From NCBI RefSeq assembly GCF_900187115.1, contig NZ_LT906455.1, positions 1,240,001 to 1,304,000 on the forward strand: DNA of 64,000 nt, in the 5' to 3' direction. A program made the translations under genes and the position numbers. Positions within the stretch are counted from its first letter, which is position 1, and each line of letters begins with the position of its first letter. The DNA comes from Aliarcobacter butzleri. Lineage in GTDB: Bacteria > Campylobacterota > Campylobacteria > Campylobacterales > Arcobacteraceae. Of the stretch, positions 4,353 to 43,300 are shown in pieces. The notes beneath the pieces are model-generated. The model saw nothing but the letters and a program-made list of their open reading frames with translations, had not been told where the DNA came from and ran no database searches.

Positions 4353-4565
4353 AACTCTTTCCTTTGTAATTGTTTTGTAATTTTAGGTGAGTTGTTCTTA
4401 AGTGCTAATGAGCATTTTTGTCACAAAAGTGTCATTTTATAATGCTTTCTTAAATTATAAATTTTAAATTGAATATTTTTTATCAGTAAATTTTAAAAAT
4501 TTTAAGAATTTCTAAAGCTAAATTAAATAGAATGTTTGTTTTTATTGAATTTAGAAAGGAATTAA

Positions 4566-5495
4566 ATGAGACATTTCTTAACACTAACTGACTTTACTAA
4601 AGATGAGATTTTAGAAATCCTTACTTTAGCAAAGCAGATTAAAGAAGAGACAAAAAGAAGAGAATTTAAAGATTATATGCCTAAAAAAGTTTTAGCTATG
4701 ATTTTTGAAAAAAGTTCGACAAGAACAAGAGTCTCTTTCGAAACTGGTATTTATCAGTTAGGTGGAATTGGGCTATTTCTTTCATCAAATGACATTCAAT
4801 TAGGTCGAGGTGAGCCTATGAGTGACACTTCAAGAGTTATTTCAAGAATGGCTGATATGGTGATGATTAGAACTTTTGAACAAAGTAAAATTGAAGAATT
4901 TGCAAAATACTCAAAAGTTCCAGTAATAAATGGTCTAACAAATGAATACCATCCAGTACAACTTATGGCTGATTATATGACTATTCAAGAAGCAGGACTT
5001 GAAAAAGATTTAGTTGTTGCTTATGTAGGTGATGGAAATAATATGGCTCACTCTTGGCTAAATCTAGCAGCAAAACTTGGATTTGAACTTAGAATTGCAA
5101 CTCCAAAAGGTTATGAAGTAGATAAAAATATCTTAAATAATGCTCTTGAAATGGCAAAAATAAGTGGTGCAAAAATCATCATAGGAAATGACCCAAAAAC
5201 TGCTATAAAAGATTCAACTGTTGTTACAACTGATACTTGGGTTTCAATGGGACAAGAAGATGAAAAAGAGAAAAGAGTAAAAGATTTCGCTGGATATATG
5301 GTGGATGCTGATATGATGAAATTAGCTCAAGATAAAGCTATTTTCTTACATTGTTTACCTGCTTATAGAGGTTATGAAGTTAGTGAAGAAGTTATAGAAA
5401 GTTCACAAAGCCTTATTTTTGAAGAGGCTGAAAATAGACTTCATGCTCAAAAAGGTGTTATGGTTTGGTTAGATAGAAAAAGAGATGAAAAATAG
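4566..5495 (+). CDS. argF: Ornithine carbamoyltransferase
   Basis: A 309-residue enzyme that joins carbamoyl phosphate and ornithine to give citrulline in arginine synthesis. Seen motifs are the carbamoyl-phosphate loop [10 protein letters not shown] (about 52-61), HPVQ (about 132), and the ornithine-side HCLPAYRG (about 260). Length matches the family. The ATG follows AGAAAGGAATTAA. hemN begins at the base after its stop, so the two are co-transcribed. argG, the next arginine enzyme in the pathway that is visible here, lies about 32 kb away, so the arginine genes are dispersed. Confidence 0.97.
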
Positions 5496-6863
5496 ATGAT
5501 AGATTTTGCGAAATTTGTAAAATACTCAAAACCAGGTCCTAGATATACTTCATATCCAACTGCTCCTGAGTTTAGTGAAGCTTTTACACAAGATGATTTA
5601 AAAGAATTTTATAAAAATCAAAGTGATGATAGACCATTATCACTTTATATTCACATGCCTTTTTGTAGAAGTGCGTGTTATTTCTGTGGTTGTAATACTA
5701 TTTTTACTTCAAAAGAAGATAAAAAAACTAGATATATTGAGTATTTGAAAAAAGAGTTAAATATTCTAAAAAATCATCTAAATACTAAAAGAGTTGTAAC
5801 TCAAATGCACTTTGGAGGAGGAACTCCAACATTTTTCTCTCCTTCTCAACTTGAAGTTGTAATAACTGCAATAAAAGAGATTTTCCCAAACTTTAGTCCT
5901 GATGCAGAGATTTCTTGTGAAGTAGATCCAAGATATTTTACAGTTGAACATATGAATGTTTTAAAAGCTGGTGGCTGTAATCGTCTAAGTTTTGGAGTTC
6001 AAGATTTAGATGAAGAAGTACAAAAAACTATTCATAGAATTCAACCTTTTGAATTAACTCAAAATGTTATCAAAATAGCTCGTGAAGCTGGTATTCACTC
6101 GATTAATACTGACCTAATCTATGGTTTACCATATCAAACAAGAGAAAGTTTTAAAAAAACGTTAGAGCAGATGATTACACTAAATACGGATAGATTTGCA
6201 GTATTTAATTATGCTCATGTTCCTTGGCTTATGAAAACTATGAGAAAATTTGATGAAACAACATTCCCAAAACCTGAAGTTAAACTAGAGATGTTAAAAG
6301 ATACAATAGATTTCTTTACATCAAATGGTTATAAAATGGTCGGAATGGACCACTTTGCTAAACCTGAAGATGAACTATTTAAAGCTATAGAAAAAGGTGA
6401 ACTTCATAGAAATTTCCAAGGATATACTACTAAAGGTGGAGCTGATTTAATAGGAATTGGGCTAACTTCTATTGGAAATGGTGTTGATTATTATGCACAA
6501 AACTTTAAAGAGTTAGAACCTTGGGAAAATGCTATTGATAATGGAGATTTACCTGTATATAAAGGTTATAGATTAAGTGATGATGATATGCTTAGACAGT
6601 TTGTCATAATGGAACTTATGAGTAATTTTTCTTTAAATATAAAAAGAGTTGAAGAAGAGTTCAAAATAAACTTTAAAGAGTATTTTGATGATGCAATAAA
6701 AGCTTTAAAAGAGTTTGAAGATGCGCAACTTTTAAAAATAACTGATAATAAAATTGAAGTTTCTCAAACAGGTTCTATGCTTATAAGAAATATTTGTATG
6801 CCATTTGATGCATATCTAAACAAAATCCCTGAAGAGAGAAGAAGATTCTCGAAAACTATTTAA
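5496..6863 (+). CDS. hemN: Oxygen-independent coproporphyrinogen III oxidase
   Basis: A 455-residue radical-SAM enzyme that decarboxylates coproporphyrinogen III to protoporphyrinogen IX in haem synthesis under low oxygen. The N-terminal GPRYTSYPTAP and HMPFCRSACYFCGC (CX3CX2CXC) are the hallmarks of true HemN, as opposed to the shorter HemW-like proteins. GGGTPTF follows in the SAM site. Length is that of genuine HemN. It starts directly after argF and is followed by a clear terminator, so argF-hemN is a two-gene unit. Confidence 0.96.
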   Translation: MIDFAKFVKYSKPGPRYTSYPTAPEFSEAFTQDDLKEFYKNQSDDRPLSLYIHMPFCRSACYFCGCNTIFTSKEDKKTRYIEYLKKELNILKNHLNTKRVVTQMHFGGGTPTFFSPSQLEVVITAIKEIFPNFSPDAEISCEVDPRYFTVEHMNVLKAGGCNRLSFGVQDLDEEVQKTIHRIQPFELTQNVIKIAREAGIHSINTDLIYGLPYQTRESFKKTLEQMITLNTDRFAVFNYAHVPWLMKTMRKFDETTFPKPEVKLEMLKDTIDFFTSNGYKMVGMDHFAKPEDELFKAIEKGELHRNFQGYTTKGGADLIGIGLTSIGNGVDYYAQNFKELEPWENAIDNGDLPVYKGYRLSDDDMLRQFVIMELMSNFSLNIKRVEEEFKINFKEYFDDAIKALKEFEDAQLLKITDNKIEVSQTGSMLIRNICMPFDAYLNKIPEERRRFSKTI

Positions 6864-6866
6864 TAT

Positions 6867-6894
6867 TTCCAAGCTAAAGCTTGGAAGTCTTTTT
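6867..6894 (+). terminator. Intrinsic terminator after hemN
   Basis: Perfect 8-bp arms TTCCAAGC and GCTTGGAA around a TAAA loop, with a T-rich tail. It lies 3 bases past the hemN stop and before the convergent minus-strand operon. Confidence 0.85.
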
Positions 6895-6908
6895 AATTTT
6901 TCATTCCA

Positions 6909-7379
6909 TTACCAGCCATATTCGTCTCCCTTTAATACTTTCTTTTCTATTAAAATATCTTTTATTTTCTCTATATTTTCTTCTTTTGTAAGAAATAAAT
7001 CAACTCCAAAACAAAATAATCTTTTAAAAAAATTATGTTTTTTATTTTTAAAAATAAAAGACTTAATTACAAGACCTCTTTTAGCAATTACTACTTTTAG
7101 GTTTTTATATTTAATTTTATTAAAATAAATTTTTCCAAATACTTTCCACTCTTTAATAACACAATGATTTCTAAAAATTACTCTTTTAAAAAACCAAATA
7201 TCAAGAAGTTTATATATAAAAACAATAACAAATAACAAGCCGATTAAAAATGACATAATTTGTTTAGTAAAAAATATCAAATAAAGTCCTAAAAATATTG
7301 CAAAAATACAAATTAATATTCCAACAACTAATCCTTCCGAACTTAGCTTTAATTCTAATTTAATATTCTTATCATTCAT
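6909..7379 (-). CDS. Small membrane protein of unknown function
   Basis: I do not recognise a named family. The 156 residues start with a short polar segment, then two adjacent hydrophobic stretches (about 16-33 and 41-60), then a basic, beta-rich cytoplasmic part of about 90 residues. That architecture resembles small membrane-anchored proteins with a PH-like or DUF fold, but this is a guess. It begins at the base after the stop of the 70-residue protein upstream and is the last gene of the long minus-strand operon. A role in the envelope is only suggested by lpxK nearby. Confidence 0.6.
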   Translation of the reverse strand: MNDKNIKLELKLSSEGLVVGILICIFAIFLGLYLIFFTKQIMSFLIGLLFVIVFIYKLLDIWFFKRVIFRNHCVIKEWKVFGKIYFNKIKYKNLKVVIAKRGLVIKSFIFKNKKHNFFKRLFCFGVDLFLTKEENIEKIKDILIEKKVLKGDEYGW

Positions 7380-7592
7380 TTATAACTCTTTAATTCGCTG
7401 TTTTCTTCCAATAAACAGATATAAAATAGCACCAAAGATAGGAAAACAAAGTATTACAATAATCCAAATAATTTTGTTATATCCCGTAAATTCATGTTTT
7501 AAAATATCAATAATAATAAAAATATATAAAATAAAACAAAAAATCACAAATATGATAAGACTTAAAGACAGAAAAATAGTAAAAAAACTCAT
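7380..7592 (-). CDS. Short PLDc_N-like two-helix membrane protein
   Basis: A 70-residue protein with two hydrophobic helices and the conserved pattern DILKHEFTGYNKIIWIIVI and FPIFGAILYLFIGR. That pattern is typical of the PLDc_N domain (the N-terminal membrane segment of cardiolipin synthases) found alone in many short proteins. No catalytic domain is present, so it is not itself a phospholipase. It sits 8 bases after lpxK and just before another small membrane protein. Confidence 0.75.
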   Translation of the reverse strand: MSFFTIFLSLSLIIFVIFCFILYIFIIIDILKHEFTGYNKIIWIIVILCFPIFGAILYLFIGRKQRIKEL

Positions 7593-7600
7593 CTAAACTC

Positions 7601-8545
7601 CTATTTAAAACTATTTATATAACTATTCATAGAAGAAAAATCTACATTTTCATCTATTTTTATAGATAAGTCCATCAAATATAGATTTTCTAAATTAAAC
7701 TCTTTTAATTTAACCATATCTTTTCCTGTTGTTAAAATAGCATAATCTTTATATTCATTTTGAATATCTAAAATCTCTTCTTTTGTAAAATTATGATGGT
7801 CAGGAAAACTTATCATTTTTATATTTTTAGGTAAAAATTCTAAAAGTCTTTTTGGTTTTGAAATAGCTGTTAATAAAATAGTATAAGAAGGAAGTTCTTT
7901 TATATTTTCATCTTTTTTTATTGTAATTACTCTTTTGAAATCTTTTCCTTCTTGTAAAACAATATTTGCTTTTTTATAAAAACTTTTAGGCTCTCTATAT
8001 CCCCCACTTGGTAAACAAAAGTTATTTGTAGGTTCATTTTTTGGTTTTAAAAGAATATCAAACTTTGAAATACTATATTTTGAAAATCCATCATCTAAAA
8101 ATATAATTTTACTTCCTAATTCTTTTGCTTTTAAGATAGCTTCTATTCGATTTTCACTTACTATTATCGTAGCTTTTTTTAAACTTTTTGCTAAAAGCAT
8201 AGCTTCATCACCACTTACAGTTACATCAACTTTTATATCACCATTTAAAGAGACTATTTGTAAACCTTTTGAACTTCTTCCATATCCTCTTAAAATCACA
8301 CAAGCATTTTCATATTTACTAGCTAATTCAATAGTTATTGGAGTTTTTCCACTTCCTCCAACAATTATATTTCCAATAGAAATAATTGGAATATCAAAAT
8401 CTATTTTTTTAGCTTTAAATCTTTTTGTAAAAATTATAATCAGATAAATAAGAGTTAAAGGAAGAAGTAAAAAAGAGATGATTTTTTGAAAAAATTTGGG
8501 AAAGAAGAGATATTCTTCAATCCATAAATGTATTTTTTGTTTCAA
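7601..8545 (-). CDS. lpxK: Tetraacyldisaccharide 4'-kinase (lipid A synthesis)
   Basis: A 314-residue inner-membrane-associated kinase that adds the 4'-phosphate to the lipid A precursor. After an N-terminal membrane-attachment segment (about 13-40) comes the Walker A loop GNIIVGGSGKTP (about 57-68), then DDGF (about 150) typical of LpxK. Length fits the family. It follows the aminotransferase gene by 6 bases in the same operon. Together with kdsB and lptB elsewhere in the window it shows an LPS-bearing outer membrane. Confidence 0.93.
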   Translation of the reverse strand: MKQKIHLWIEEYLFFPKFFQKIISFLLLPLTLIYLIIIFTKRFKAKKIDFDIPIISIGNIIVGGSGKTPITIELASKYENACVILRGYGRSSKGLQIVSLNGDIKVDVTVSGDEAMLLAKSLKKATIIVSENRIEAILKAKELGSKIIFLDDGFSKYSISKFDILLKPKNEPTNNFCLPSGGYREPKSFYKKANIVLQEGKDFKRVITIKKDENIKELPSYTILLTAISKPKRLLEFLPKNIKMISFPDHHNFTKEEILDIQNEYKDYAILTTGKDMVKLKEFNLENLYLMDLSIKIDENVDFSSMNSYINSFK

Positions 8546-37294: not shown

Positions 37295-38536
37295 ATGAGT
37301 AAAAAAGATATAAAAAAAGTTGTTCTTGCATATAGTGGAGGTTTAGATACTTCTATTATTTTAAAATGGCTTCAAGATGAATATAATGCAGAAGTTATCA
37401 CTTTTACAGCTGATTTAGGACAAGGTGAAGAAGTTGAACCTGCAAGACAAAAAGCTATTGCTTGTGGAATAAAACCTGAAAATGTTTTTATTTTAGATAT
37501 TAAAGAAGAGTTTGTTAAAGATTATGTTTTCCCAATGTTTAGAGCAAATGCTATTTATGAAGGTGAATATCTTTTAGGAACTTCTATTGCAAGACCATTA
37601 ATTGCTAAAAAACTTGTAGAAATTGCAAATCAAAAAGGTGCAGAAGCAGTAAGTCATGGAGCAACAGGAAAAGGAAATGACCAAGTAAGATTTGAACTTG
37701 GAGCATTAGCTTTAAATCCAGATTTAAAAGTTATTGCACCTTGGAGAGAGTGGACTTTAAATTCAAGAGAAAGTTTACTTGAATATGCTAAAAAAAATGG
37801 AATTGAAATATCACAAAAACATGTTGATGAAAATGGAAATCCAAAAATCAGCCCATATTCTATGGATGCAAATTTACTTCACATCTCTTATGAAGGTTTA
37901 CACTTAGAAAATCCAGCAAATGAACCAGAAGAATCAATGTGGTTATGGACAAATTCTCCAGAACAAGCACCTGATGAAGCTGAATATATTACTATTGGAT
38001 ATAAAAATGGAGACCCTATTTCTATAAATGGAAAAGAGTTATCACCAGCAACTTTACTTAAAACTTTAAATGATTATGGAAATAAACATGGAATTGGAAG
38101 AGTTGATATTGTTGAAAACAGATATGTTGGTATGAAAGCTCGTGGTTGTTATGAAACTCCAGGTGGAACAATTATGTTAAAAGCTCATAGAGCAATAGAG
38201 TCTTTAACACTAGATAGAGAAGCTGCACATTTAAAAGATGAATTAATGCCAAGATATGCAAAACTAATTTATCAAGGATATTGGTTCTCACCAGAAAGAG
38301 AAATGCTTCAAGCTGCTATTGATGCAACTCAAAAAAATGTAGAAGGAACTGTTAGATTAAAACTTTATAAAGGAAATGTAACTGTTGTAGGAAGAGAATC
38401 AAGTAAATCTCTTTATGATGATGCTTATTCAACTTTTGAAAAAGATGAAGTTTATAACCAAAAAGATGCAGAAGGATTTATCAGACTTAACGCTCTAAGA
38501 TTTATCATTGCAGGTAAAAAAAACAATAAAAAATAA
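37295..38536 (+). CDS. argG: Argininosuccinate synthase
   Basis: The second in-frame ATG (37295) is preferred because AGGA lies 7 nt before it and it gives the usual [16 protein letters not shown] start. The 413 residues have the PP-loop [22 protein letters not shown], and [17 protein letters not shown] near the C-terminus. It joins citrulline and aspartate using ATP. A clear terminator follows. Confidence 0.97.
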
Positions 38537-38544
38537 TCACACTT

Positions 38545-38575
38545 CAAGCTAAGGTTTAAAACCTTAGCTTTTTTA
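38545..38575. terminator. Terminator between argG and dltA
   Basis: AAGCTAAGGTTT and AAACCTTAGCTT are complementary around a small A loop, followed by a T-rich tail. Both convergent genes can use it. Confidence 0.75.
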
Positions 38576-38579
38576 TTTT

Positions 38580-40016
38580 CTACATATTTTTATAAATATT
38601 TATTAACTCATTTTTATCTATTTTATGATTTGCATTATATGAAAACTCATCTAAAATAATAATATCTGATGGAACCATATAATATGGAAGATTTTTTGAA
38701 ATATCTTTTTTTAACTTTTCAATATCTAAATCATTTTTACTAACAATAAATGAGATAAGTTTTACTACTTCATTTCCTCTTTTTAGAGGAATTGTAATAG
38801 CTTCTTCTATAAACTCATTATTTGTAAGTTCTTTATCAATTTCACCTAATTCTATTCTGAACCCATGAAGTTTTATAAGTTCATCTTTTCTATTTGCAAA
38901 AAAGAGTAAGTTATCTTCAAAATATCCAAAATCTCCAGTTCTAAAACTTCTTTTTTCATATTTCTTTTCAAATTTCTGTTTATTTAACTCTTCATTATTG
39001 AAATATCCAATAGATACATTATCTCCAACTATTTCCATTTCACCTATATTTTCACTATCAATATCTAATAGATTTATAACTGTTCCAGGTTTTACATAAC
39101 CAACAGGTAAACTCTTAGAATATTTTTCTAAAATTTCTGGCGTTATTTCTACTATTGTCGTAGCAACAGTAGCTTCAGTTGGACCATAAGTATTTAAAAC
39201 TTTTGAATTTGGAAAATTGTTTTTTATTCTTTTTACAGTAGTTGATGGTAAAACTTCTCCACAAAATAAAAATGTTTTTAAACTTTTTATATTATCTTCC
39301 ACAAATTCACTTGAAAGCAATAATTTACTAATAAATGATGGTGTTGAAACCCAAACATTACAAGCATATTTTTTTAATCTTTCAAAATATTCAAGATGAT
39401 TTTCTATTGTATCTTTACTATTTAAAACAATAGTTCCACCAAAACTTAAAAATCCAACTAACTCATAAACTGATAAGTCAAAACTAAAAGGAGCTTGATT
39501 CATAAAAACACTATTTTGAGGTAATCCAAAATCATTATTTAACCAATTTTGGAAATCTAAAATAGCATTTTGTGTTATTTGTACACCTTTTGGTTCACCA
39601 GTACTTCCTGATGTAAAAATTATATAAATAATTGGGTCATCTAAAAAGTATGTTGTAGAAAGATTTTTTTCATCAAAATCTATTTTATTTTCTATAATAT
39701 CAATAATTATAGATGATTTTACAATTCCAAATATTTTATCAACTCTCTCTTTTGGATAAATAGTATCAATAGGAATATATGGATATCCCAAACTCATACA
39801 AGCAACCATACTTACTATGAATTCTACTTCTTTATGCCCATAAATAATAACTGGATGACCTTTAGGAAGATTATATTTTAAAAGTTTTTCTTTGAAAAGT
39901 TCTACTTCACTTTTAAATTCATTCCAAGTTAAATCTTTATTACTTCCACAAACTGCTAATTTTTGACCATCTTTTTCACACTCAACAAAATCTAAAAGTT
40001 TAAAATCAAATCTCAT
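38580..40016 (-). CDS. dltA: D-alanine--D-alanyl carrier protein ligase
   Basis: A 478-residue AMP-forming ligase. The ATP loop is FTSGSTGEPKGVQIT (about 133-147), with YGPTEATVA (about 275) and GDFGYFEDNLLFFANRKDE (about 355-375) further on. It should adenylate D-alanine and load it onto the carrier DltC. It ends the five-gene dlt operon and overlaps dltB by 4 bases. Another substrate amino acid cannot be ruled out from sequence alone. Confidence 0.9.
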   Translation of the reverse strand: MRFDFKLLDFVECEKDGQKLAVCGSNKDLTWNEFKSEVELFKEKLLKYNLPKGHPVIIYGHKEVEFIVSMVACMSLGYPYIPIDTIYPKERVDKIFGIVKSSIIIDIIENKIDFDEKNLSTTYFLDDPIIYIIFTSGSTGEPKGVQITQNAILDFQNWLNNDFGLPQNSVFMNQAPFSFDLSVYELVGFLSFGGTIVLNSKDTIENHLEYFERLKKYACNVWVSTPSFISKLLLSSEFVEDNIKSLKTFLFCGEVLPSTTVKRIKNNFPNSKVLNTYGPTEATVATTIVEITPEILEKYSKSLPVGYVKPGTVINLLDIDSENIGEMEIVGDNVSIGYFNNEELNKQKFEKKYEKRSFRTGDFGYFEDNLLFFANRKDELIKLHGFRIELGEIDKELTNNEFIEEAITIPLKRGNEVVKLISFIVSKNDLDIEKLKKDISKNLPYYMVPSDIIILDEFSYNANHKIDKNELINIYKNM

Positions 40017-41149
40017 AATGGAACCCTCCCACTAAAAAAATATAAAGCAAAAACTGCACCATTTATCATCAAAAACCTTTTTAAATTTATACTTATAATT
40101 TCAGGGAAAAATGAAAAATAGTCATATCCTCCTTTTTTTACATATAAAACATAAGCATTGTGAATACTTGAATAAATCCCAAATAAAAAACCACTAAAAA
40201 TAAAATACCAAGTTAAACCATTCCACATTCCCATAAGTAAAAAAGTACAAGTTATTGCTATATTTTGTAGAAGCAATTTTCTATTTTTCAAATATGGATA
40301 TTTATGAAGATATTTATATAAAGGTTTAAAGAAATAATCTGTCAACCAAGTTCCTAAAGTAATATGAAATCTTCTCCAGAAATCTTGAGGATTTGGTGCA
40401 AGATATGGATGATTAAAGTTCATTGGGATAAAAATACCTATCATAAAACTCAAACCTACTGCCATCGCACTATATCCAGCAAAATCAAAAAATAGATATG
40501 TTGTGTATGAATAAGCACTATTTGCCATATCAAGAAAATTTGTACTATTTTCATCAATTTTTGCTAGCCAATACATAGCTACTAATTGTGCGATTACAAA
40601 CTTAAATAAAACTCCAACGATTAAAATATCCCAACCTTTACCAACATTTTGTAAAGTTAAATTTTCATAACCTTTTTTCAAATCTTCTTGAAATCTATAT
40701 GACCTATCAATTGGACCTGCTAAAAGTGTTGTTGGAAAAAGTAAAAAAGATGTAAACTCCATAAAAGATAGTTTTCCATAATTTTGACTATCAACAATCG
40801 CTTGAATTGTTCTAAATGTAATATATGAAATACCAATAATTTTGAAGATTGGATCAATATCTAATTTATGCAAAATCATAGGAAAAGCAATAACAATCAT
40901 AGGAAAAATAGTTTCTTGATAGTTGTTTGATACAAAAATCAGATAAATTATATAAACATATAAAAGTAAAAGAAAAAGTTTATAAGAATCTGGTATACAA
41001 ATAGATATATAAATAACAACTGACAAAAATATAACTGTTTTATACGAAATAAATCTTTTTAAAATATTTTTAAATAAATGTAAAAAAAGAATAAAAATGA
41101 AACTTATGGCAAAAAAGCCTATTCCTGAAAAAGGTAAAAAATCTTCCAC
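40013..41149 (-). CDS. dltB: MBOAT D-alanyl transfer protein
   Basis: A 378-residue polytopic membrane protein of the MBOAT family, with about ten helices. NPQDFWRRFHITLGTWLTDY (about 245-265) and LLMGMWNGLTWYF contain the conserved Asn/Trp and His of DltB. It moves D-alanyl from DltC across or onto a membrane acceptor. GTG start, one base of overlap with the small dltX stop. Confidence 0.92.
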   Translation of the reverse strand: MEDFLPFSGIGFFAISFIFILFLHLFKNILKRFISYKTVIFLSVVIYISICIPDSYKLFLLLLYVYIIYLIFVSNNYQETIFPMIVIAFPMILHKLDIDPIFKIIGISYITFRTIQAIVDSQNYGKLSFMEFTSFLLFPTTLLAGPIDRSYRFQEDLKKGYENLTLQNVGKGWDILIVGVLFKFVIAQLVAMYWLAKIDENSTNFLDMANSAYSYTTYLFFDFAGYSAMAVGLSFMIGIFIPMNFNHPYLAPNPQDFWRRFHITLGTWLTDYFFKPLYKYLHKYPYLKNRKLLLQNIAITCTFLLMGMWNGLTWYFIFSGFLFGIYSSIHNAYVLYVKKGGYDYFSFFPEIISINLKRFLMINGAVFALYFFSGRVPL

Positions 41150-41289
41150 TAAAATTCCTCATAGACAAATTCAACATCAGATTCAACATCATTTCCTATT
41201 AAATCACTTATATTTGCATCCATTAAAATATGCAAAAGACCAACTATTAAAAATAAATATATAAAAAAGATTTTTAAAAAATATTTCAA
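41149..41289 (-). CDS. dltX: DltX-like 46-residue membrane peptide
   Basis: A 47-codon ORF between dltD and dltB. It starts with TTG at 41289, behind AAGG and immediately after an in-frame stop, and reads MKYFLKIFFIYLFLIVGLLH, one membrane helix (about 4-22), then an acidic tail ending FVYEEF. Known DltX peptides have the same layout and end in F(I/V)YNEF. The final stop overlaps the dltB GTG by one base. DltX is known to bind DltB/DltD and to be needed for D-alanylation in Gram-positives. It is too short for most gene callers. Confidence 0.8.
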   Translation of the reverse strand: MKYFLKIFFIYLFLIVGLLHILMDANISDLIGNDVESDVEFVYEEF

Positions 41290-41299
41290 TCAAACTACC

Positions 41300-42427
41300 T
41301 TACTTCATAAAATAATCAATAATTTTTTGGTTGACTCTTATCCAACCTAACTCGTCTAAATGAACAATATCTGTTAAGCTATTCATTTCATAATTCTCTT
41401 TCTTATATGTCCACATATCCATATACTCAAAATTATGTTCTAAGACTTTTGACTTTATTATAGCCATTAATTCATTAGCTTCTTCTCTATTACCTACAAA
41501 AACATAAGGGTTCAAATCTTGCATTATGAATAGTGGTTTTATTTTATAATTATCTAAAAAGTCAAGTAATACTAAAAAATCTTGGAACTCTTGGTTTTTA
41601 TCTAATTCAGGGGGTATTATTATTGAAAATGGAAAATTATTTTTCACAATTTCTGGTTCAATATATTTTGAATAGTATTCATTATTGATGCCAAAACTAT
41701 TATTTGAAGAAGGAATTTCTATATTTTTAGCTTCAACTCTTAATTTATCATAATCCAATTTTGGTTTAACATAATTTAGTGTTTCTACTTTTACATTTTT
41801 ATAATCAAAATTTTGAATTATAAATTTTTTGATTTCATTGTTTAAATAATCTTTTTCTAAAACGTTTAAAGGGTATTTATATATAAAACTTGGCTCTTTT
41901 ATTAAAGATACATTCTCTTTTATATAGTCACTTATTAAATATCTATATTTATCATCTGTTTCGCTTTCAAAATATAGTTTATTCATCATTCCTGAATACA
42001 TATATTCCAAAAACTTTGGCATAGTTAAACCATTTTCATTAGAACCTGTAAACCAACTTGGAGATAAAAGAACTACTACTCGTGCATTATTTCTTATCGT
42101 TTCATTATCTAAAGCTGCTAATTGAGACATTATTACAAAAGTTTGATGCCCTTCATTACCTTGAACTCTTAATGGTATGTTTAATTCATTATTGAAAAAT
42201 TTTTGTGGTAAAAATCTTTGGTTGGGATATTTTACTAACTCTGAAGAACCAAATAATACAATCTTTCCACTTTCTAAATCAGTTTGTAAACTTACAGTCT
42301 TTTGTAGTGTATCTTGTAAAGGTTTTGTATAATATTCAAGAATTTCATCTTTAAAAATAAAAACCCCTAAAAAGACAATAAAAGATGAAATAAATAAAGC
42401 AAAAATATTTATAAAAAATTTATTCAC
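41300..42427 (-). CDS. dltD: D-alanyl transfer protein DltD
   Basis: A 375-residue protein with an N-terminal membrane anchor (about 5-25) and a periplasmic SGNH-like domain. The nucleophile is in GSSEL (about 61) and the acid/His pair in DIVHLDELGW (about 354-363). DltD completes D-alanyl transfer to the acceptor. It overlaps dltC by one base and is followed by dltX after 10 bases. Confidence 0.92.
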   Translation of the reverse strand: MNKFFINIFALFISSFIVFLGVFIFKDEILEYYTKPLQDTLQKTVSLQTDLESGKIVLFGSSELVKYPNQRFLPQKFFNNELNIPLRVQGNEGHQTFVIMSQLAALDNETIRNNARVVVLLSPSWFTGSNENGLTMPKFLEYMYSGMMNKLYFESETDDKYRYLISDYIKENVSLIKEPSFIYKYPLNVLEKDYLNNEIKKFIIQNFDYKNVKVETLNYVKPKLDYDKLRVEAKNIEIPSSNNSFGINNEYYSKYIEPEIVKNNFPFSIIIPPELDKNQEFQDFLVLLDFLDNYKIKPLFIMQDLNPYVFVGNREEANELMAIIKSKVLEHNFEYMDMWTYKKENYEMNSLTDIVHLDELGWIRVNQKIIDYFMK

Positions 42428-42654
42428 TAAATTCTACTTTTTATATAATTTACCAATTTTTCTATACTATCAAAATTACTTTCAATAATATCTCTTGTAT
42501 CAATTTTGATATTGAACTCTTCTTCTAACATCATAGCTAAATCAACTGTTCCCATACTATCAATTAAATTTGAAGTATATAAAGGTTCATCTATTTCAAC
42601 TTTCTTAAATGCTATCTCTTCTACTAATGGTTTAATTCTTTCTATAATATCCAT
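42427..42654 (-). CDS. dltC: D-alanyl carrier protein
   Basis: A 75-residue acyl-carrier-type protein. LIDSMGTVDLAMMLEEEF (about 30-47) holds the phosphopantetheine Ser in DSM. As first gene of the operon with its own promoter region it should be loaded with D-alanine by DltA. The gene order here is C-D-X-B-A. Confidence 0.9.
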   Translation of the reverse strand: MDIIERIKPLVEEIAFKKVEIDEPLYTSNLIDSMGTVDLAMMLEEEFNIKIDTRDIIESNFDSIEKLVNYIKSRI

Positions 42655-42693
42655 ATTTCCTCCTATAAAACTTTCATCTGAAAAATATTTGAC

Positions 42694-42718
42694 ATTATAT
42701 AAAATAATTCGGATTATT
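42694..42718 (-). promoter_or_regulatory. Probable dlt promoter with a near-palindrome upstream of the -10
   Basis: Read on the minus strand, TATAAT is at 42699-42694, about 40 bases before dltC. Just upstream, AATAATTCGGATTATT (42703-42718) has 6-bp inverted arms AATAAT/ATTATT. It lies where a -35 box or an operator would be. The regulator is unknown. Confidence 0.45.
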
Positions 42719-42767
42719 AAGCAAAAAATTAAAATTTTTTTGTAATTTTAATGCTATATTCTTTTAT

Positions 42768-42773
42768 TATAAT
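42768..42773 (+). promoter_or_regulatory. -10 element of the carbonic anhydrase gene
   Basis: TATAAT with a T-rich stretch before it, about 27 bases before the ATG at 42800 and upstream of AATAAGGAG. It is divergent to the dlt promoter. Confidence 0.55.
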
Positions 42774-42799
42774 CCCAATTTACAATAAGGAGTTTTTTT

Positions 42800-43300
42800 A
42801 TGATATTAAAATTTAAAGAATTTTACCCAAAAATTGACCCAAGTGCTTGGATTGCACCAAGTGCAGATTTAATAGGAAACATCGAAATTGGCGAGGATTC
42901 TTCTATTTGGTTTGGTTGTGTTATAAGATCAGATATAAATGAAGTTAAAATTGGAAAGAATACAAATATTCAAGATTTATCTTGTATTCATACAGATACA
43001 AATAGTAAAACTATAATTGGTAATAATGTAACAGTTGGACATAAAGTTATGCTTCATGGATGTATTATTGAAGATAATTGTCTAATTGGTATGAGTGCAA
43101 CTATCTTAGATAATGCTGTAATTGGAGAAGGAAGTATCGTTGGAGCAAATTCACTTGTAACTGCTGGAAAAGTTTTTCCACCAAGAAGTATGATTATGGG
43201 AAGTCCAGCAAAAGTAGTAAAACAATTATCTCAAGAAGATGTTGATAAACTTATAGCTCATGCAGGTCGTTATGTAGAATATAAAAATGAATATAGATAA
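42800..43300 (+). CDS. Gamma-class carbonic anhydrase-like protein
   Basis: A 166-residue left-handed beta-helix protein built of hexapeptide repeats (IGNIEIGEDSSIWFGCVI, TIIGNNVTVGHKVMLHGC). The metal-ligand His positions of gamma-carbonic anhydrase are matched by HTDTN, VGHKVMLHGC. It may hydrate CO2 or be an acyl-transferase-like relative. It lies 380 bases upstream of a SulP transporter, which may be a bicarbonate carrier. Confidence 0.85.
   Translation: MILKFKEFYPKIDPSAWIAPSADLIGNIEIGEDSSIWFGCVIRSDINEVKIGKNTNIQDLSCIHTDTNSKTIIGNNVTVGHKVMLHGCIIEDNCLIGMSATILDNAVIGEGSIVGANSLVTAGKVFPPRSMIMGSPAKVVKQLSQEDVDKLIAHAGRYVEYKNEYR

Follow-up and report, generated by a model that had tools for sequence, protein, structure and literature searches.

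Does a Gram-negative bacterium of the phylum Campylobacterota encode a complete pathway for surface D-alanylation, including the membrane microprotein DltX, and does its acyltransferase retain the residues on which such enzymes are held to depend? These questions are raised by positions 38580-42654 of a 64,000-nucleotide stretch of Aliarcobacter butzleri DNA (the window; NZ_LT906455.1, positions 1,240,001 to 1,304,000, from a genome that is a single contig of 2.35 Mb), for which a preliminary description had proposed a five-gene dlt-type operon with a hidden dltX. Our analysis bears this out, with all open reading frames (ORFs) at the place claimed and on the minus strand, and the locus is likely to be a chromosomal Gram-negative-type dlt operon that adds D-alanine to an anionic envelope polymer via Tyr43 of DltX and the transferase DltD. 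Gram-negative dlt operons are already known, and it is the altered active site of DltB that is the most surprising feature here.

Composition of the operon

The ORF coordinates confirm the gene order C-D-X-B-A: dltC (42427..42654), dltD (41300..42427), dltX (41149..41289), dltB (40013..41149) and dltA (38580..40016). Junction overlaps of 1-4 bases, also part of the preliminary description, are present at three of the four junctions (C/D 1 base, X/B 1 base, B/A 4 bases), but not between dltD and dltX, which lie 10 bases apart without overlap. Bacillota systems (Staphylococcus aureus, Bacillus thuringiensis, Streptococcus thermophilus) have the order X-A-B-C-D, as had been pointed out, yet share with this operon all five components, an FXYXXF motif on a separate membrane microprotein, the D-alanine-selecting residues of DltA, the Ser/Asp/His of DltD and the carrier Ser of DltC.

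DltA (478 residues), the D-alanine activating enzyme, matches D-alanine ligase models with E 3e-133, and its closest solved relative is Bacillus cereus DltA (3fcc, E 1.8e-93), in which Asp197 and Cys269 bind the amino group and confer selectivity for D- over L-alanine (PMC4176424); alignment of the pocket identifies these residues as Asp180 and Cys252 here. DltC (75 residues), the D-alanyl carrier protein, has its carrier Ser in NLIDSMG, a column common to six other aligned DltC, and is recognised by PF00550 (E 1.7e-6) and, below cut-off, by NF003464 (E 4e-8). DltD (375 residues; PF04914, E 5.6e-59) is an SGNH-type transferase with one N-terminal membrane helix, whose Ser62 (in GSSEL), Asp353 and His356 occupy columns invariant across Gram-positive and Klebsiella DltD; a search of the PDB by sequence gave no match. 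DltB (378 residues) is an MBOAT acyltransferase matching TIGR04091 (E 4e-67, below cut-off) and S. thermophilus DltB (6bug, E 2.8e-37). ORF and family-model searches thus find DltA, DltB, DltC and DltD, the gene set of the Dlt pathway, encoded together. All four nevertheless miss their NCBIfam equivalog cut-offs (DltA with 445 of 476 bits for the subfamily model and 439 of 560 bits, DltB 227 of 375, DltC 33 of 68 and DltD 98 of 150), which, together with the asparagine of DltB described below, indicates a homologous but divergent lineage.

DltB lacks the MBOAT histidine

In alignments the sequence GFWHGITWYY of S. thermophilus DltB corresponds to GMWNGLTWYF here, placing Asn310 (40220..40222, minus strand) at the position of His336, whilst His289 is kept throughout as His262 (40364..40366, minus strand). 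Two further positions differ from the Bacillota enzymes, Ser319 standing in place of Tyr345 and Phe323 in place of His349; Tyr345 forms part of the m-AMSA pocket of DltB (PMC11035591). His336 has been called invariant in DltB (PMC11035591), and its equivalent universally conserved in MBOATs and required in PatA (PMC12148441); histidine is indeed found there in 10 Gram-positive DltBs and 5 other MBOATs, including the genome's own second MBOAT. Asn310 occurs in every Aliarcobacter DltB read, for which reason a sequencing error was rejected, and also in a plasmid-borne DltB of Klebsiella and Enterobacter. The DltB tree groups these proteins with Gram-positive DltB, separately from PatA-type MBOATs, and places the Asn-bearing DltBs on one branch (support 97/93), within which the Klebsiella branch is very long and drew a warning from the tool.

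The plasmid operon, D-X-B-A-C in order and flanked by insertion sequences, is carried by Klebsiella electrica and Enterobacter cloacae (NZ_CP041250.1, extract L037, positions 4481-8533; NZ_CP071862.1) in copies near-identical across species, and a K. pneumoniae plasmid likewise gave a match to part of it; none of the E. coli genomes has it. Like the window it combines a D-X-B-A core with a short protein, here of 40 residues, ending HFEYQKF and annotated only as hypothetical, and with a DltB that has Asn where His336 would lie; unlike the window it has dltC last, Ile in place of the selectivity Cys of DltA, and a DltB only 31% identical to that of the window. An Asn-type DltB joined to a D-X-B-A core is therefore not peculiar to Aliarcobacter, whilst the Ile of the Klebsiella DltA makes the substrate of the plasmid system less certain.

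Eukaryotic MBOATs also have an asparagine (ACAT1 421, DGAT1 378, PORCN 301), paired with a histidine of helix 7, and since the order of the pair is His...Asn here versus Asn...His in those enzymes, His262 is proposed as the base, a guess on our part. It is a serious possibility, though one falling somewhat short of probable, that the Gram-negative-type DltB may be a working MBOAT without the histidine of transmembrane helix 7, in which a reversed His262...Asn310 pair would operate, and thus a natural and conserved exception, occurring in two phyla, to the requirement for that histidine. Alternatively, DltB might be an MBOAT devoid of catalytic activity that persists as a scaffold or channel, DltX or DltD being acylated by some other route. 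This reading would fit the requirement for the histidine in PatA and Gram-positive DltB (PMC12148441) and the accompanying changes at two neighbouring active-site positions, but appears unlikely given that DltB, at a mean column identity of 87%, ranks among the best-conserved proteins encoded in the operon and shows no variation at Asn310 or His262, that DltX, meaningful only as an MBOAT acceptor, is retained in every case, and that the Asn form is common to an operon of another phylum. Natural DltBs without the histidine held essential in current MBOAT mechanisms make the role of that residue directly testable.

Two other features of DltB may be recorded. Its C-terminus reads FSGRVPL, and a further histidine, His330 (40160-40162, minus strand), is invariant in Asn-type DltBs and present in four of five PatA-like MBOATs but in none of 10 Gram-positive DltBs. 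AlphaFold models built from genus alignments of 11 rows (mean predicted local distance difference test score 43 for DltB and 55 for DltD) were too poor for use.

A putative D-alanine relay and its acceptor

In the relay that we propose, which is carried over from work on Gram-positive Dlt and PatA onto the genes, motifs, conservation, co-occurrence, His-to-Asn change and presence/absence site observed here, DltA would activate D-alanine and load it onto DltC. DltB would then carry D-alanine from DltC through the inner membrane to Tyr43 of DltX, making this first transfer via a remodelled site (Asn310, Ser319, Phe323) that most likely relies on the retained His262; DltX would pass it to the serine of DltD, and DltD would esterify an acceptor in the periplasm, for which the likeliest identity is lipooligosaccharide or some other glycan that bears phosphate. 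The resulting ester would lower the negative charge of the surface and probably make the cells more tolerant of cationic peptides. Such a relay is favoured because the five pathway genes are contiguous and the key residues of DltA, DltC and DltD are kept, because an FXYXXF microprotein co-occurs exactly with DltD and DltB clusters with its Gram-positive counterparts, and because the enterobacterial plasmid operon has the same core and asparagine, the Aliarcobacter operon is present or absent as a whole at one site, and a dltB mutant of the Gram-negative Dickeya is sensitive to polymyxin (PMC3544676).

Several points weigh against it. DltB is without the histidine for which a requirement has been reported in both DltB and PatA. 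The Pfam family for DltX, PF12459, a match to which had been named beforehand as a check, finds neither the 46-residue protein nor anything else in the whole genome, whereas it does recognise the DltX of S. aureus, Niallia and Listeria. When the DltX profile is compared with that of its Gram-positive counterpart, the membrane segment and the motif come into register, but with a probability of 49, a moderate value only, as is to be expected of 46 residues. Lipooligosaccharide stands as no more than a candidate acceptor. The role in cationic-peptide tolerance is probable by analogy, resting on the polymyxin-sensitive dltB mutant of Dickeya, for which the dlt substrate was called unknown (PMC3544676), and on Gram-positive work; the phenotype in Aliarcobacter is our guess.

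With respect to the acceptor, likewise a guess, a search of the genome found no TagF-type polymerase, a difference from the Bacillota systems. The genome does encode EptA and, at 1.80-1.82 Mb and close to glycan genes, two distant phosphoglycerol-transferase-like proteins, which make phosphate or phosphoglycerol on lipooligosaccharide a candidate acceptor, no more. Were D-alanine indeed attached to lipooligosaccharide, Aliarcobacter would possess a further charge-masking device.

As to the substrate, an operon working as described might transfer another small amino acid, e.g. glycine or L-alanine, a proposal for which one may cite the divergence of the operon, the addition of glycine to LPS by related logic in Vibrio cholerae (described in PMC3783018) and the Ile at the selectivity Cys of the related Klebsiella DltA. 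We regard this as improbable, however, in that Aliarcobacter DltA keeps Asp180, Cys252 and their surrounding motifs in all aligned copies, and an alanine-racemase family protein encoded in the genome could supply D-alanine.

DltX

The 46-residue ORF ending FVYEEF had been put forward as a genuine gene that is easily missed, and its conservation, substitution pattern and co-occurrence with DltD uphold this. It begins with TTG and encodes a protein that, as read from its sequence, has one transmembrane segment, a lysine at the N-terminus, an acidic tail and, at the extreme C-terminus, the published FXYXXF acyl-shuttle motif (41152..41169, minus strand; Tyr43 codon 41161-41163), the tyrosine of which ferries D-alanine from DltB to DltD and is acylated and required in Gram-positive DltX (PMC12148441). 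Amongst the 414 ORFs of at least 25 residues in the window, dltX is the only one with an F-x-Y-x-x-F ending. The gene lies between dltD and dltB in 18 of 18 complete Aliarcobacter genomes having DltD; the first 11 aligned copies are 60-96% identical, the C-terminus is the best-kept part, reading FVYE[E/A]F in every copy with Tyr43 invariant, and per-site non-synonymous change is below synonymous change in every comparison. Applied to 397 sampled Campylobacterota genomes, a profile of the protein retrieved exactly the 12 that are DltD-positive, all with E < 1e-24, the next match being at 5e-4.

As PF12459 does not match, the identification is made from motif, position, conservation and co-occurrence, on which grounds the ORF is, in the functional sense, DltX. 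A chance reading frame within a four-gene dltCDBA system, for which the lack of a family match and the TTG start might be invoked, is scarcely credible for an ORF that is kept in all dlt-positive genomes with its C-terminus best conserved, is dominated by synonymous changes, co-occurs exactly with DltD and has an equivalent in the Klebsiella plasmid operon.

Distribution, genomic site and relation to known systems

Within the same sample of 397 genomes true DltD is confined to Aliarcobacter, where it is present in 18 of 28 good genomes. Two weak DltD matches in other genera were set aside: both are next to PatA-type MBOATs that carry fused motifs, with neither dltA nor dltC nearby, and are partners of other MBOAT systems. 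Viral contigs scanned with DltB and DltA yielded no relative, and a scan of genome contigs with DltA patterns matched almost only Aliarcobacter, since the patterns fell on lineage-specific stretches. In the window (at 38536-42800) and in three relatives the operon is flanked by argG and a gamma-carbonic-anhydrase gene, which are adjacent, about 110 bases apart, in five sister genomes without dlt, and the operon has therefore been acquired or deleted as one block; five further species have different genes on both sides of it, so that it has also moved.

That dlt genes occur in other Gram-negative bacteria, Bordetella amongst them, had been stated at the outset and agrees with the literature, which gives Bordetella, Erwinia, Photorhabdus, Dickeya and Pectobacterium (in the last two as dltBAC plus dltD). 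These share with Aliarcobacter the presence of dlt genes in an LPS-bearing host, but belong to a different phylum and have DltC last rather than first. A literature search found no paper naming dltA together with Arcobacter, and the literature searched, outside which the main acyl-shuttle study fell, contained no description of either the Gram-negative DltX form or the Asn-type DltB. The present analysis extends dlt operons to the Campylobacterota and provides a Gram-negative DltX that annotation had overlooked.

PatA-PatB and other MBOAT-SGNH pairs share the acyl-Tyr relay via a C-terminal hexapeptide (PMC12148441), but have the hexapeptide fused to an MBOAT that possesses the catalytic histidine, as is the case for the second MBOAT of this genome.

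Minor observations

A terminator-like hairpin of 11 pairs (38546..38570) lies between the convergent ends of argG and dltA; shuffling leads one to expect 0.8 such hairpins where one was observed, which makes it suggestive only. The hairpin is symmetrical, and at the same place other species carry different hairpins.

Solitary plasmid dltB genes were encountered in Ligilactobacillus murinus (extract L058, 2525-3933), directly after the gene for the bacteriocin bactofencin A, and in Enterococcus faecalis (extract L062, 2707-3906), without other dlt genes. The PatA-like second MBOAT of A. butzleri (extract L043, 251-2610, at about 1.808 Mb) has a fused FLYFNF end and the sequence WHG, and adjoins a partner protein; its region contains three genes for sulfatase-fold proteins resembling phosphoethanolamine or phosphoglycerol transferases and is probably a surface-glycan locus.

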